The translations under genes and the position numbers were made by a program. A stretch of 64,000 nucleotides of DNA, taken from Acidobacteriota bacterium. GTDB lineage: Bacteria; Acidobacteriota; Blastocatellia; RBC074. The notes beneath the pieces are model-generated. The model made no database searches. It was not told the DNA's origin and was given only the letters and a program-made list of their open reading frames with translations. Location of the stretch: the NCBI GenBank assembly GCA_016196035.1, contig JACPYM010000008.1, positions 62,001 through 126,000 on the forward strand. The letters run 5' to 3'. Shown here piece after piece: positions 44,316-49,954 of the stretch (positions are counted from its first letter, which is position 1; the number at the start of each line of letters is the position of its first letter).

Positions 44316-46349
44316 ATGAAAAAACTCGCGCTTATTCCCGTCCTGGTTTTGACGCTGCTCGTCGCCGTGGCGAGCGCAACCGGTGACAAACACTTCACCA
44401 GCGAAGACGCGCTCGCGCTGAAAACCCTCGGCGCGCCGCAATTTTCGCCCGACGGCAAACGCCTCGCGTACACCGTCAGCGAATGGGATCGCAAAGAAGA
44501 CCGCCGCGTCAGCCACATCTATCTGGTGACGACCGACGGCAGCAAAACCATCAAACTGACCAACGGCGAAAAAGGCGAGAACGCGCCGCAATGGTCGCCC
44601 GATGGCACGCGCATCGCCTTCCTGGCTGACCGCAGCGTTAATAACAGTGGGGGCGCGCAACTCTGGCTCATTCCCGCCGACGGTGGTGAAGCCGAAAAGC
44701 TGACCAGTGAAGAGAACGGCGTGCAAAGCTTCCGCTGGTCGCCCGATAGCAAGCAGATCGCCTTCATTACACGCGATACGCCCAAAGACAAAGAGGCGCG
44801 TGAGAAAAAGAAGAAAGACAAGTTCGACACGATCACCGTTGACCGCGATTTGAATTATTCGCACCTCTGGACGATCAACATCGAAAGCAAAGACAAAAAA
44901 CGCCTGACCGAAGGCGAATTCTCCGTCCAGACGCCGCAATGGTCGCCCGACGGCAAATGGCTCGCTTATGCCGCGTCAAAAGCCGCCGCGCAAGAAAGCA
45001 TCTTCACCGACATTTCCAATGACCGCGACAGCGACATCTTTGTGATTTCCGCAACGGGCGGCGCGGCGCGCAAACTCACAACCAACCCCTCCGCCGACGC
45101 CAATCCGCAATGGTCGCCCGATGGCAAATGGATCGCTTATGTCGCAAACACCGATTCGTGGGCGTCAAAGGCCGATGTAATGTTGATTGATGTCAACGGC
45201 GGCACACCCAAAAATCTGACCGCGAGCTTTATCGAATCCGCAGGCAGCGGTCTGACCTGGTCGCCCGACGGCAAGACGCTTTATTTCAGCAGCGGCGTCG
45301 GCATGTACAATCACGTTTACAGCTTGCCAGTCGCAGGCGGAACCGTCAGCAACGTGACTTCAGGCAAACTCAACTACGGCCAATTCGATCTTTCCGCCGA
45401 TGGCAAACGCCTGGCGTATACGCTGAACGACAGCCGCACGCCTGACAACATTTGGGTTTCGACGCTGGGCCAGAACGACGCCAAACGACTGACGCAGGTC
45501 AATCCGCAAATCAGCGACTTCGCCATCGCCGAGACCGAAGTCATCAAGTGGAAGGGCACCGACAATTTCGACATCGAAGGGTTGCTGCTCAAACCGCTCG
45601 GCTATCAGGCGGGCAGGAAATATCCGCTCATCCTGCAAATCCACGGCGGCCCTTACGGCAAATTCAGCGATACCTTCAACGCGCGCAATCAGATTTGGGC
45701 GGCCAATGGTTACGCCGTGCTGATGCCCAATCCACGCGGCTCGACGGGTTACGGCAACAAATTCACCGTCGCCAATCTCAATGATTGGGGTGGCAAAGAC
45801 TTCCAGGACATCATGGCCGGCGTAGACGCTGTGATCGCGCGCGGCCTCGCCGATGCCGACAAATGCGTCGTGATGGGCGGCAGCTACGGCGGCTTTATGA
45901 CCTTCTGGACGGTCTCGCAAACCGACCGCTTCAAAGCCGCCATCGGCCACGCCGCCATCAGCGACTGGTACAGCTTCCACGGCCAGAGCGACATTCCGGG
46001 CCTGATGGAATACGGCTTCAAAGGCAATTCGTGGGAGGTGCCCGAAAATTACCGCCGCTGGTCGCCGATGACCTACGTCAGCAAGGTCAAAACCCCGCTG
46101 ATGATCACCCACGGCGAACGCGACCAGCGCGTCAACATCCAGCAAGGCGAACAGTATTACCGCGCCCTCAAAAAACGCGGCGTCGAAGTCGTGTTTTACC
46201 GCTACCCGCGCGAAGGCCACGGCATTCAGGAACCCAACCACGTGATTGACCTGACCACGCGGCAGTTGGAATGGTTCGATACGCATTTGGGGATTAAGCG
46301 GGAGAAAGCGGGAGAGTTGAAGGCGGCGGGAGCGAGCGGAATGAAGTGA
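44316..46349 (+). CDS. S9 family peptidase (acylaminoacyl/dipeptidyl peptidase type)
   Basis: 677 aa. ATG 44316 follows AAAGAAAGG and opens a signal peptide (MKKLALIPVLVLTLLVAVASA). A PD40-type seven-bladed propeller (FSPDGKRLAYTVSEWD and repeats of QWSPDGKWIAYVA) occupies about 30-400, followed by an alpha/beta hydrolase domain. The catalytic triad is visible: Ser in GGSYGGFM near 522, Asp in GERDQRVN near 600, His in REGHGIQEP near 634. It cleaves oligopeptides, probably in the periplasm. Its last 140 bp have a diverged duplicate at 47188-47327. Confidence 0.93.
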   Translation: MKKLALIPVLVLTLLVAVASATGDKHFTSEDALALKTLGAPQFSPDGKRLAYTVSEWDRKEDRRVSHIYLVTTDGSKTIKLTNGEKGENAPQWSPDGTRIAFLADRSVNNSGGAQLWLIPADGGEAEKLTSEENGVQSFRWSPDSKQIAFITRDTPKDKEAREKKKKDKFDTITVDRDLNYSHLWTINIESKDKKRLTEGEFSVQTPQWSPDGKWLAYAASKAAAQESIFTDISNDRDSDIFVISATGGAARKLTTNPSADANPQWSPDGKWIAYVANTDSWASKADVMLIDVNGGTPKNLTASFIESAGSGLTWSPDGKTLYFSSGVGMYNHVYSLPVAGGTVSNVTSGKLNYGQFDLSADGKRLAYTLNDSRTPDNIWVSTLGQNDAKRLTQVNPQISDFAIAETEVIKWKGTDNFDIEGLLLKPLGYQAGRKYPLILQIHGGPYGKFSDTFNARNQIWAANGYAVLMPNPRGSTGYGNKFTVANLNDWGGKDFQDIMAGVDAVIARGLADADKCVVMGGSYGGFMTFWTVSQTDRFKAAIGHAAISDWYSFHGQSDIPGLMEYGFKGNSWEVPENYRRWSPMTYVSKVKTPLMITHGERDQRVNIQQGEQYYRALKKRGVEVVFYRYPREGHGIQEPNHVIDLTTRQLEWFDTHLGIKREKAGELKAAGASGMK

Positions 46350-46365
46350 ATTGCGTTTACGAGGC

Positions 46366-46404
46366 GAAAGGCGGATTGCTGAGAGTTGCGCCAATCCGCC
46401 TTTC
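46366..46404 (+). terminator. Hairpin terminator after the S9 peptidase
   Basis: Perfect 13-bp inverted repeat (46366-46378 and 46392-46404) with a 13-base loop. Confidence 0.65.
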
Positions 46405-46464
46405 CTCAGCTTGCCCAGCGTTCGCAATAATGCGAATATGTCCAGCCAGTGGAGGGAACCCTTC

Positions 46465-46830
46465 ATGCCGCAAACCAACGTAGTTATTTTTCAGGACGAA
46501 GACGGAAGCACGCCTTTTTTGAAATGGTTTGATGAGCTACCAGCCAAAGCGCAAAGCAAATGCCGCGTGCGATTGGAGCGATTGGCGCAACTCGGCCATG
46601 AACTGCGCCGCCCTGAGGCCGATTTCTTACGTGATCAGATTTATGAACTGCGCATCGGCTTGGGAGGCATCAATTACCGCAGCCTGTATTTCTTTCACGG
46701 CAATGTTGCGGCAGTGCTCTCGCACGGCATTGTGAAGGAGCGCGCTGTGCCGCCCAGCGAAATTGATTTAGCGGTCAAGCGGAAGCAGCAATTCATTGCG
46801 AATCCTGACCGCCATACGCATGTGGAGTAA
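46465..46830 (+). CDS. higB: HigB-like type II toxin (RelE/ParE superfamily, Gp49-like)
   Basis: 121 aa from ATG 46465, chosen because GGAGGG lies 7-8 bases upstream; an ATG nine codons earlier has none. VVIFQDEDGSTPFLKWFDELPAKAQSKCRVRLERL is the family N-terminal helix pair, LRDQIYELRIGLGGINYRSLYFF the beta-sheet core with the conserved Arg-rich strand, and VLSHGIVKERAVPPSEIDLAVKR the C-terminal helix. By family it would be a ribosome-dependent mRNA interferase. The toxin-first order with the HTH antitoxin 5 bp downstream is the HigBA arrangement. Confidence 0.88.
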   Translation: MPQTNVVIFQDEDGSTPFLKWFDELPAKAQSKCRVRLERLAQLGHELRRPEADFLRDQIYELRIGLGGINYRSLYFFHGNVAAVLSHGIVKERAVPPSEIDLAVKRKQQFIANPDRHTHVE

Positions 46831-46835
46831 ACGAG

Positions 46836-47162
46836 ATGGCCGAAAAAAAGAAAACTTCCGATGCCTTGGCAATCCTGCATCGCCGCTATTACGCGGGCAA
46901 ACCGGAACGGTTGGCGGAGTTGGAAGAAGCCCGCGCCAATGATTCGGTTGCACGCAAAATCACTGCCTTACGTGAGAAGGCGGGGCTTTCGCAACGGCAA
47001 TTAGCGAAATTGATCGGCACAACTGCGTCGGTGATTTGCCGACTGGAAAACGCCGAGTATGAAGGGCATTCGCTGGCGATGCTGAACCGTATTGCTGCCG
47101 CGCTCGATCAACGGCTGGAAATTCGCTTTGTCCCATTACGCAAGGAGCGCAAGGCTGCTTGA
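46836..47162 (+). CDS. higA: HigA-like XRE-family antitoxin
   Basis: 108 aa with a helix-turn-helix at about 42-95 (ALREKAGLSQRQLAKLIGTTASVICRLENAEYEGHSLAMLNRIAAALD). It pairs with the toxin gene 5 bp upstream and probably represses the operon by binding its promoter. The basic tail RFVPLRKERKAA is typical. It follows the toxin directly with no terminator between them. Confidence 0.88.
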   Translation: MAEKKKTSDALAILHRRYYAGKPERLAELEEARANDSVARKITALREKAGLSQRQLAKLIGTTASVICRLENAEYEGHSLAMLNRIAAALDQRLEIRFVPLRKERKAA

Positions 47163-47187
47163 ACCTGAGCGCATAGTCGCCCATCCC

Positions 47188-47327
47188 GCGAAGGCCACGG
47201 CATCCAGGAACCCAATCACATCATTGACCTCACCGCGCGGCAGTTGGCATGGTTCGATGCGCATTTGGGGATTAAGCGGGAGAAGACGGGAGAGTTGAAG
47301 GCGGCGGGGGCGAGCGGGGCGAATTGA
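47188..47327 (+). pseudogene. Leftover 3' end of a second S9 peptidase gene
   Basis: 140 bp aligning without gaps to 46210-46349, the end of the intact S9 gene, with 15 mismatches by hand count (about 89 percent). It encodes EGHGIQEPNHIIDLTARQL, WFDAHLGIKREKTGELKAAG and a stop. The catalytic His is included but everything before it is missing. It looks like the tail of a tandem paralogue whose body was lost. Confidence 0.85.
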
Positions 47328-47352
47328 CAATGTACCGGTTATTCAAACAAGG

Positions 47353-47398
47353 CGGAACCACGTGGGTCAATCAACCTTCGTGGTTCCGTCCTGTTTTT
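47353..47398. terminator. Terminator between convergent genes
   Basis: CGGAACCACG (47353-47362) pairs with 47379-47388, partly extended outward, and is followed by a T5 run. It lies just downstream of vsr (on -) and of the S9 remnant (on +), so it may act in both directions. Confidence 0.6.
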
Positions 47399-47404
47399 AG
47401 GCGT

Positions 47405-47812
47405 TCACGCTTCAAGAAAGCGTCGTACTTTGCCGGTCAGTTTGGCTAAATCCTCAGTCTCGCATTCCCACACGGCCAAACACTTCCAACCCAGTTTTTT
47501 AAGCTGCACTTGATGCTCTGCGTCGCGCACCTTATTCCGCTCCATTTTCGGAATCCAGTAATCCTGATTCGATTTTGGCAGGCGTGAGATGGCGCAGTTT
47601 TGATGCTGATGCCAGAAGCAGCCATGCACGAAGATCACTTTGCGGCGTTTGGCAAAAACAAGGTCGGGCCGTCCTGGCAGCTTGCCGCCGTGCAACCGGT
47701 AACGATAGCCGAGACTATGCACGAGACGGCGCACAACCATTTCAGGCTTCATGCCTTTGCTGCGGATGCGCCGCATATTTTCGCTGCGTCTTTCAGGCGA
47801 AATCGTATCCAC
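47405..47812 (-). CDS. vsr: Very short patch repair endonuclease (Vsr)
   Basis: 135 aa from GTG 47812, four bases after the stop of the restriction gene, so probably coupled. It nicks at T:G mismatches arising from deaminated 5-methylcytosine. Hallmarks: SPERRSENMRRIRSKGMKPE at the N-terminus, YRLHGGKLPGRPDLVFAKRRKVIFVHGCFWH with the catalytic Asp and metal-binding region, HQNC, and LKKLGWKCLAVWECE. Vsr is normally linked to a cytosine-5 methyltransferase, but none is visible here. Confidence 0.93.
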   Translation of the reverse strand: MDTISPERRSENMRRIRSKGMKPEMVVRRLVHSLGYRYRLHGGKLPGRPDLVFAKRRKVIFVHGCFWHQHQNCAISRLPKSNQDYWIPKMERNKVRDAEHQVQLKKLGWKCLAVWECETEDLAKLTGKVRRFLEA

Positions 47813-47816
47813 TTGG

Positions 47817-48671
47817 TCACACGGCGAGATCAAGGGGCAAATCTGAAATATCTTTCAGCCGCTTACCGTCAATCATGATTTGCAGTAATTCCAGCGAGTC
47901 TGAGTTTAAGTTTTCCACTGTCTCAACGAGTTCAGTCAACGCAAAGTGATAAACGCAATCAATGTCGCCTGTGCCTAACGCGATGGAGGCGATTCTGGCG
48001 GGCAGCGGTTCGCCTGTCACCACAGCGATGTGCGGTAGATGACCTTTGCGGTTGCGGATTAGGTTCAAGGCTTCGGAGCGCGAGTTTTGCGAGCGGTCGC
48101 TACGGATAGTCCATTTGCAAGAGATGCTGGCATGCAGCAAAGGCCGGACGTTGTTTCTCTTTCGCAAGCTTGCCCACAAGGCAGTCTGGTCATCAACAAT
48201 CGCCCCTTGCGCGTTGAGCGTCAAATTATCTTCAGGCTGGCGCGAGATGATGATGTCGGGCGTGATCGTGTAATCGCTGCTCAGCAGGGCGGCAAGTTCG
48301 GCGTTTTCTTCGGCGGCTTGGTAGAGGGCAATCAAGTGCGCATATTGTTCAAACGGTGCAATCAACAAACGATTTCTTGTCCCGACTGATTCAACCGACC
48401 ATTCACTTGGCCTGAGATGCTTTAATTGCAAATAGGTCTCTTCAATGAATTGTTTGCAAGCGCCTTCAAATTGCCGCCCCGAAGTTTGCCCAGCCAATCG
48501 CAGTTCCCCAATCCCCGAGCCGACACGGCTCAAAATTCCAGAGGCAAAAGCGACGCTGGCCTGACTATGTCTGTCGGCATTGGTTGGGACTCCCTGCGCA
48601 TCCGCATTCAGCACGGACGATAGTAACGCCGTGTGAAAGTGTTTTCTTGCCCTTGCGAAAACGCTATCCAT
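47817..48671 (-). CDS. Type II restriction endonuclease, NgoMIV family
   Basis: 284 aa from ATG 48671 (GGAG seven bases upstream), close to the 286 aa I recall for R.NgoMIV. Residues match the NgoMIV active site shifted by one: Glu69, Asp139 (TPDIIIS), Lys186 in SCK and Glu200. The recognition stretch IRSDRSQNSRSEALNLIRNRKG is also conserved (Arg190, Asp192, Arg193). NgoMIV cuts GCCGGC as a tetramer, so the same target is likely. No cognate methyltransferase is in the window, which makes the gene either inactive, protected by a distant enzyme, or a relic. It overlaps no other gene; vsr follows. Confidence 0.88.
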   Translation of the reverse strand: MDSVFARARKHFHTALLSSVLNADAQGVPTNADRHSQASVAFASGILSRVGSGIGELRLAGQTSGRQFEGACKQFIEETYLQLKHLRPSEWSVESVGTRNRLLIAPFEQYAHLIALYQAAEENAELAALLSSDYTITPDIIISRQPEDNLTLNAQGAIVDDQTALWASLRKRNNVRPLLHASISCKWTIRSDRSQNSRSEALNLIRNRKGHLPHIAVVTGEPLPARIASIALGTGDIDCVYHFALTELVETVENLNSDSLELLQIMIDGKRLKDISDLPLDLAV

Positions 48672-48863
48672 GAACAACTCCTTTACGTAATATCCGGCTC
48701 ACTGTCAGTGAGGCAACCGACGTTAAGTTGTGCGGCTCAGCATTTGACAGCTTTCTGCCATATACATAAGCATCGGAAGTCACGATATTATGGAAACTAG
48801 GCCGTGAGCAAGGCGGGTAACCTGCGGAGTGTTGAGGATAATTACGGAGGAGTGAACTGCAAT

Positions 48864-49661
48864 ATGGATACGCTACCTCATAGAAACGAGTTGATGAGAC
48901 CAACTGTTGAAGCTATCAGATCGCTTGGCGGTTCAGGTTCTGTCGAGGAAATTGTCGAAAAGGTGATTTCCATCCTCGGGATACCCGATGAACTTGTGAC
49001 TCGTCCCTATATCACCAAGCGCGGTAATGAGGACGGTAGAACACAACTTGAATACGAACTTGCGTGGGTAAGAACCTACCTAAAACAACTTGGGGTTTTA
49101 GAAAACTCCGCGCGTGGTGTATGGGCCAGGACGGGAAAGGAATTTATAGATGAAACCGGAGTAGCATTAACCACCCCCGATAAAGCTGCCGTCTCTGTTG
49201 ATTGGCGGGAACGCATCAACAAATGTCTCGTTGAAATACTTTCTCCGTCTGCATTCGAACGGCTCGTCCAGCGCATGCTTCGGGAGACAGGCTTTGCGCA
49301 GGTCGAAGTAACGGGCAGAACAGGAGATGGCGGAATTGATGGGAAAGGCATTGCGAAAATCAATGGAATCCTTAGCTTCAGGGTTGTCTTCCAATGCAAG
49401 CGTTATCGTGGAAGTGTTAGTGCTAGTGAAATTCGAGATTTCCGAGGAGCTATGCAAGGGCGTGCAGATAAAGGTCTCTTCATCACCACCGGCTATTTCA
49501 CGCGCGATGCTGTAAAAGAGGCAACTCGTGATGGTGCAATTGCAATTGACATCGTTGATGGCGAGAAGCTCGCAGAGAAATTAAAAGAGCTTTCCCTTGG
49601 GGTAAAAATCGAACTTGTAGAAAATATTGTGGTGGATGAAGAGTGGTTCAAGGCAATTTAG
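48864..49661 (+). CDS. mrr: Mrr-family restriction endonuclease
   Basis: 265 aa from ATG 48864, with GGAGG about 13 bases upstream. The N-terminal winged-helix domain (about 1-95, LPHRNELMRPTVEAIRSLGG) is followed by the Mrr catalytic domain (about 125-260): FERLVQRMLRETGF, TGRTGDGGIDGKG carrying the catalytic Asp, VVFQCKRYRGSVSASEIRDFRGAM with the QxK pair, and GLFITTGYFTRDAVKEA. Mrr enzymes cut DNA with foreign methylation. It is transcribed away from the NgoMIV-like gene. Base use looks AT-richer than in the surrounding genes, consistent with horizontal gain. Confidence 0.92.
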   Translation: MDTLPHRNELMRPTVEAIRSLGGSGSVEEIVEKVISILGIPDELVTRPYITKRGNEDGRTQLEYELAWVRTYLKQLGVLENSARGVWARTGKEFIDETGVALTTPDKAAVSVDWRERINKCLVEILSPSAFERLVQRMLRETGFAQVEVTGRTGDGGIDGKGIAKINGILSFRVVFQCKRYRGSVSASEIRDFRGAMQGRADKGLFITTGYFTRDAVKEATRDGAIAIDIVDGEKLAEKLKELSLGVKIELVENIVVDEEWFKAI

Positions 49662-49954
49662 GTTAGCATTCGCTTCACCACCTATCATCGGTTACCAAGA
49701 CGACTGTTAAGGCATACATAATACGCATGAATTCCCCAAGTTGTTGACATAGCACAGTTGCTATTCGTGCCCACTAGCTTCGCGCACCGGATAACGCGAA
49801 GCGCGCCACGCCCGCACAAATCTCTATCGAAGTCAGCCGTTTCATTGTGTCGTGTGACATTCTCCTTGCGAATTGATTACTGGGATTTGCAGTTGGTCAG
49901 CATCATAGGAAGAGGCTGACAGCGCAACTTTTACAAGCCGCAACACAACTCCTT
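49662..49954. other. Gap between the defence patch and the quinone reductase
   Basis: 293 bp with no convincing open frame, hairpin or known motif. A lone TTGACA occurs near 49744 without a matched -10. Confidence 0.4.

Follow-up and report, generated by a model that had tools for sequence, protein, structure and literature searches.

The window, a stretch of 64,000 nucleotides from an Acidobacteriota genome, harbours three adjacent genes putatively encoding nucleases. The genes of a Vsr mismatch endonuclease (47405-47833) and of a type II endonuclease of the NgoMIV family (47817-48671) are both located on the minus strand, the former overlapping the stop codon of the latter. A gene of the Mrr family (mrr, 48864-49661) lies on the plus strand, and its start codon and that of the endonuclease gene diverge from a gap of 192 bp (48672-48863). 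The identities assigned to these genes in an earlier sequence-only reading hold at their coordinates according to Pfam, TIGR00632 and the NgoMIV structure 1FIU. The stop codon of mrr is followed by a junction (49662-49809) containing a short inverted repeat (GCTTCGCG...CGCGAAGC, at about 49778-49803) and by 12 codons on the minus strand (49810-49845), a stub left from the 5' end of a cytosine-5 methylase gene. Just 3' of the Vsr gene a 23-nt hairpin formed by an inverted repeat (47345-47396) may be the operon terminator; a consensus scan called no terminator there.

The endonuclease (open reading frame 47817-48677) matches the profile PF09015 (NgoMIV_restric) at positions 1-275 of 275 with an E-value of 6.2e-110 (367 bits versus a cut-off of 23.2), and 1FIU was matched in full length as well (3.6e-99). 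It aligns end to end, at 57% identity, with the gonococcal gene of the NgoMIV system of Neisseria gonorrhoeae. The residue check detected the equivalents of NgoMIV Q63, E70, D140, S185 and K187 as well as of R191, D193, R194, E201 and R227; all checked catalytic and DNA-contact residues are thus common to both enzymes. Furthermore, 88 of the 93 near-invariant columns of the family are kept, and the ATG at 48671 is preceded by the ribosome-binding site AAGGAG. The endonuclease is of full length with intact catalytic residues and is predicted to cut GCCGGC. In the family tree it is placed on a long branch, the position of which is not fixed by the tree. The locus differs from the gonococcal system in that the methylase gene is reduced to the 12-codon stub, with mrr in its place.

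The Vsr protein (PF03852, 3.2e-30; TIGR00632, 148.5 bits versus a cut-off of 97.85; PDB match) retains the residues equivalent to E. coli D51, H64, W68 and H69. Its nearest relatives, at about 60% identity, are encoded by the Vsr genes of NgoMIV operons. In operons composed of a methylase, an NgoMIV-type endonuclease and Vsr, such as those of loci L011, L029, L059, L074 and L080, the endonuclease gene is likewise followed by an overlapping or adjacent Vsr gene, whose product is about 55-61% identical to the Vsr of the window. However, these operons contain an intact cytosine-5 methylase gene directly upstream, and mrr was found beside none of them.

The open reading frame of mrr (48804-49661, plus strand) is predicted to encode an Mrr_cat domain (2.9e-30, 105.2 bits) and an Mrr_N domain (3.4e-10, 40.4 bits), both above their cut-offs. 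It opens at GTG 48804, but since the homology to the closest mrr genes begins at ATG 48864, the latter is probably the start codon. No relative of the product was detected by sequence in the PDB. The nearest mrr genes (G133, G109 and G081; 74-80% identical) share the reading frame alone and not the flanks, and no NgoMIV gene is located near them. Their products likewise combine Mrr_N and Mrr_cat. The relatives in this family of putatively methylation-dependent type IV nucleases mostly stand alone, whereas mrr is located here inside a broken type II operon.

The 12 codons of the stub (ATG AAA CGG CTG ACT TCG ATA GAG ATT TGT GCG GGC) read MKRLTSIEICAG; their frame breaks just past the onset of methylase motif I, beyond which the sequence is unrelated and runs into a stop. 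The methylases neighbouring NgoMIV relatives yielded short tblastn matches on the minus strand at about 49789-49878, and those of L082 and L085 show KKLTSIEICAG and MKKSSLTSIEICAG, respectively, at the same place as the stub start. A blastp search with the short query gave 6e-6. A full-length HMM scored the stub at 5.8 bits versus 6.1 bits for decoys, which is unsurprising because the stub comprises 12 residues only. Since the HMM was not significant alone, the stub was assessed by a test anchored at start codons and by a motif scan of the whole genome. The former covered 24,138 start codons from about 240 kb of the same genome; both in-frame ATGs of the stub, the second of which is located at 49860, scored 55 and took ranks 1 and 2, compared with 53 for the true cytosine-5 methylase start in L004 and 45 for the next chance match. 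A degenerate DNA motif for the stub matched the 9.59-Mb genome twice, namely at the stub and at one unrelated peptide. As far as its sequence tells, the stub is the beginning of an NgoMIV-type cytosine-5 methylase gene, and stub and Vsr together point to the cytosine-5 class for the methylase of the original system.

The stub lies just outside the interval considered in the sequence-only reading, which had stated that no methyltransferase is located nearby. This remains correct for intact genes, as no methylase of the kinds associated with NgoMIV relatives was detected in the window or in a flank of 12-14 kb on each side; the linked cognate methylase of a complete type II system is represented by the 12-codon stub only. 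A 3' remnant of the methylase gene could not be demonstrated before the endonuclease gene. One candidate, a frame ending in LTVSRILRKGVVHG and a stop codon, was rejected as it was equalled or beaten by 567 of 4,000 controls. The junction sequences have no second copy in the genome, either as a repeat or as a mobile element.

The gene neighbourhood of NgoMIV-family endonucleases was surveyed at 80 loci from the genome collection and at 49 viral loci. A cytosine-5 methylase gene is adjacent in 74 of the 80 genome loci, located upstream on the same strand in 72 and divergently in two (L062 and L072). Vsr is present in 21 of these 74 loci, in 18 cases directly behind the endonuclease gene. The remaining six genome loci, found in Pyrinomonadaceae (L007) and Planctomycetes (L008, L010, L014, L026 and L055), encode an N4/N6-type methylase instead, so that the presumed association of NgoMIV enzymes with cytosine-5 methylases is the common but not the exclusive state. 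Their adjacent methylase is of the PF01555 type (beta-type) with a TSPPYWGLRDY motif, as confirmed by Pfam for L007. A third, permuted methylase type accompanies a divergent NgoMIV enzyme at L106 (G022, same class) and also occurs at the viral loci L209 and L210. The loci with N4/N6-type or permuted methylases share the endonuclease family with the locus described here but differ from it in the class of the methylase and in the lack of Vsr. According to the survey, methylases of three classes are partnered with a single endonuclease family. A methylase was present at 48 of the 49 viral loci, the 49th starting at a contig end. The locus in the window is the only methylase-less case among the surveyed loci with readable flanks, and none of the literature covered describes an NgoMIV-type endonuclease that lacks a methylase. 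The opposite kind of decay was observed at L107 (G021:C344, 5807-6013), where the permuted methylase is kept and the endonuclease is reduced to a fragment of about 70 residues that is 96% identical to the enzyme of L106.

The genome (9.59 Mb in 139 contigs, 96.9% complete, so that about 3% may be missing) contains 3,937 GCCGGC sites, and an active enzyme would therefore need protection. Three cytosine-5 methylases were detected: one on contig C15, overlapping the gene of a BsuBI/PstI-type enzyme; one on C114, followed by GmrSD_N, HEPN and Vsr genes; and one on C29. They belong to other clusters than the NgoMIV-associated methylases, their best matches to which reach 33-36% identity; the recognition domain of the C114 enzyme is weakly similar to those of the divergent methylases of L062, L072 and L079. 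The 12 PF01555 matches in the genome resemble the L007 type by 25-30% end to end, and no close relative of that type is among them. The L106 type is matched best (34%) by a permuted PF01555 methylase on C37 (L103, 5516-6331), which is truncated just past the TSPPY motif. The search for a distant methyltransferase proposed in the sequence-only reading thus revealed several methylases, none of them close to those associated with NgoMIV; as their specificities are unreadable from sequence, one of them may still confer protection in trans. The methylase gene on C29 (L006, 6781-9558) has a Vsr gene and a 263-aa open reading frame alongside; the latter is without a match in Pfam, PADLOC or the PDB and is a candidate for an unknown endonuclease.

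In about 258 kb of the genome, comprising the window and other stretches, GCCGGC occurs 95 times where 224 are expected (0.42; rank 29 of 64 palindromes). This avoidance is uninformative with regard to enzyme activity because the genome avoids many palindromes. The strongly avoided hexamers include CGTACG (0 of 21 expected), CAGCTG (1 of 57) and GTCGAC (2 of 52), the depletion of GCCGGC being moderate only.

We consider it likely that the locus represents a former methylase-endonuclease-Vsr operon in which the methylase gene was lost, mrr took its place and the endonuclease was silenced by the loss of its promoter. The ancestral state would have been an ordinary type II operon encoding a cytosine-5 methylase, an NgoMIV-type endonuclease directed against GCCGGC and Vsr. 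Recombination presumably removed the methylase gene from about codon 13 on, and mrr would have come to occupy the place of the methylase body in opposite orientation, loss and arrival probably being one event. In overlapping type II operons, transcription of the endonuclease gene usually starts at promoters that precede the methylase gene or lie within it. Because the methylase body is gone and an opposing gene lies between, the endonuclease would be cut off from these promoters, and it may have fallen silent in the same event. A consensus scan, which may not suit this organism, detected no sigma-70-like promoter facing the endonuclease in the 192-bp gap. Silence of the endonuclease would explain the survival of the cell despite the numerous GCCGGC sites without a second protective event. 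Vsr would be left without its natural substrate, and Mrr presumably acts alone as a methylation-dependent nuclease.

This history is supported by the position of the stub on the right strand and in the right place, by the location of mrr between stub and endonuclease, by the adjacent methylases at all 80 genome loci and at 48 of the 49 viral loci, and by the order methylase-endonuclease-Vsr in most Vsr-bearing loci. The kinship of Vsr to its counterparts in NgoMIV operons, the intact endonuclease, the lack of a close cognate methylase elsewhere in the genome and the lack of a promoter-like match towards the endonuclease in the gap speak for it as well. The shortness of the stub, its HMM score below that of the decoys and the lack of a demonstrable 3' remnant count against it. 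The conservation of the near-invariant columns without visible decay suggests that the event was recent or that the endonuclease is still under selection; it could also mean that the enzyme is still in use, which would speak against silencing. The decaying restriction-modification system considered in the sequence-only reading is supported in one particular form, with the methylase lost beyond 12 codons and mrr in its place. Each part belongs to a known kind; the arrangement is unusual but amounts neither to a new system nor to a module that recurs. Type II systems are regarded as addictive, since the chromosome is no longer shielded from the endonuclease once the methylase is lost. An intact endonuclease with 3,937 expected sites next to a methylase stub represents a natural escape from this addiction, and whether it is due to silencing by the replacement itself or to protection in trans is open to direct test. 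The locus offers a rare view of a restriction system without its protective half.

Protection in trans would imply that the endonuclease is active and restricts phages while another methylase, acting for example on CCGG or GCCGGC, shields the chromosome and renders the linked methylase dispensable. The intact endonuclease gene with its good ribosome-binding site and the three cytosine-5 methylases and 12 PF01555 matches of the genome are in line with this scenario. However, all three cytosine-5 methylases have other partners (BsuBI/PstI; GmrSD_N-HEPN-Vsr; Vsr and the unassigned reading frame), their distance from the NgoMIV-associated methylases argues weakly in the same direction, specificity being unreadable from sequence, and the N4/N6-type methylases resemble the L007 type only distantly. 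We therefore regard protection in trans as unlikely, though as an alternative to be taken seriously. An assembly artefact, in which a mis-join dropped the methylase gene, might be suspected in a draft of 139 contigs, but the methylase gene breaks off at a defined position within its coding sequence, the gap is occupied by an intact mrr of full length, and the junction sequences are single-copy, all of which renders it very improbable.

Even less credence is given to two further explanations. If the stub were a chance match, the NgoMIV-Vsr pair would have been captured without a methylase beside a resident mrr. The stub is indeed short and weak by HMM, but its start codons rank above a genuine methylase start, the only other motif match in 9.59 Mb is an unrelated peptide, and the stub is located on the right strand directly before the expected position of the methylase; a random match within that region of 1.2 kb on that strand has a probability of about 6e-5, as estimated from one background match. 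The unusual joint module envisaged in the sequence-only reading, with Mrr acting on methylated and NgoMIV on unmethylated DNA, would agree with the adjacency of the genes and their divergent starts. However, mrr adjoins an NgoMIV-family endonuclease at none of the 80 genome and 49 viral loci, the sole Mrr match near a surveyed endonuclease being weak and about 5 kb off (L015), and the three-gene order did not recur there or in the class. Taking furthermore into account that the nearest mrr genes lack an NgoMIV gene nearby and that NgoMIV would attack the host without self-methylation, such a module is highly unlikely; with mrr adjacent in no relative, it is not a recurrent one.

Regarding the origin of mrr in the probable loss of the methylase, a possible second case of mrr beside a broken methylase was detected at L155 (G109:C188, 5419-5556, plus strand). 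There, an mrr gene (79% identical) is located directly behind the truncated N-terminus of an N4/N6-type methylase, of which the first 42 residues or so are 60-80% identical to NgoMIV-associated ones (E-value about 7e-12; PDLC03387, 2.7e-11). L156 was considered as a third such junction and was not supported. Most mrr homologues examined lack an adjacent methylase, and a more remote homologue, plasmid-borne in Proteus, adjoins McrBC. Methylation-dependent nucleases and methylases have been shown to exclude each other in the case of McrBC and M.PvuII (PMC2614495), and mrr as a replacement fits this mutual exclusion. That this mrr subfamily repeatedly takes over type II methylase genes, joined to them by selection against methylation and not by chance, is a speculation we consider improbable; if true, the takeover would turn a methylating locus into a methylation-attacking one. 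The locus described here and L155 are too few for a rule.

Downstream of mrr, the loci of its three nearest homologues (L154, L155 and L156) contain an HNH-type gene or shorter reading frames without a Pfam match, which share the C-terminal motif NTAxPKPDxIHLxSQxRRAT; it is absent at the locus in the window. No clean empty site was found in relatives because the neighbours of the S9 peptidase gene differ among them. In the window, the 3' end of this gene is present as a 141-bp direct repeat (46209-46349 and 47187-47327; 89% identical), which flanks a Gp49-type toxin/HTH antitoxin pair (46351-47162) and marks a past insertion or duplication.
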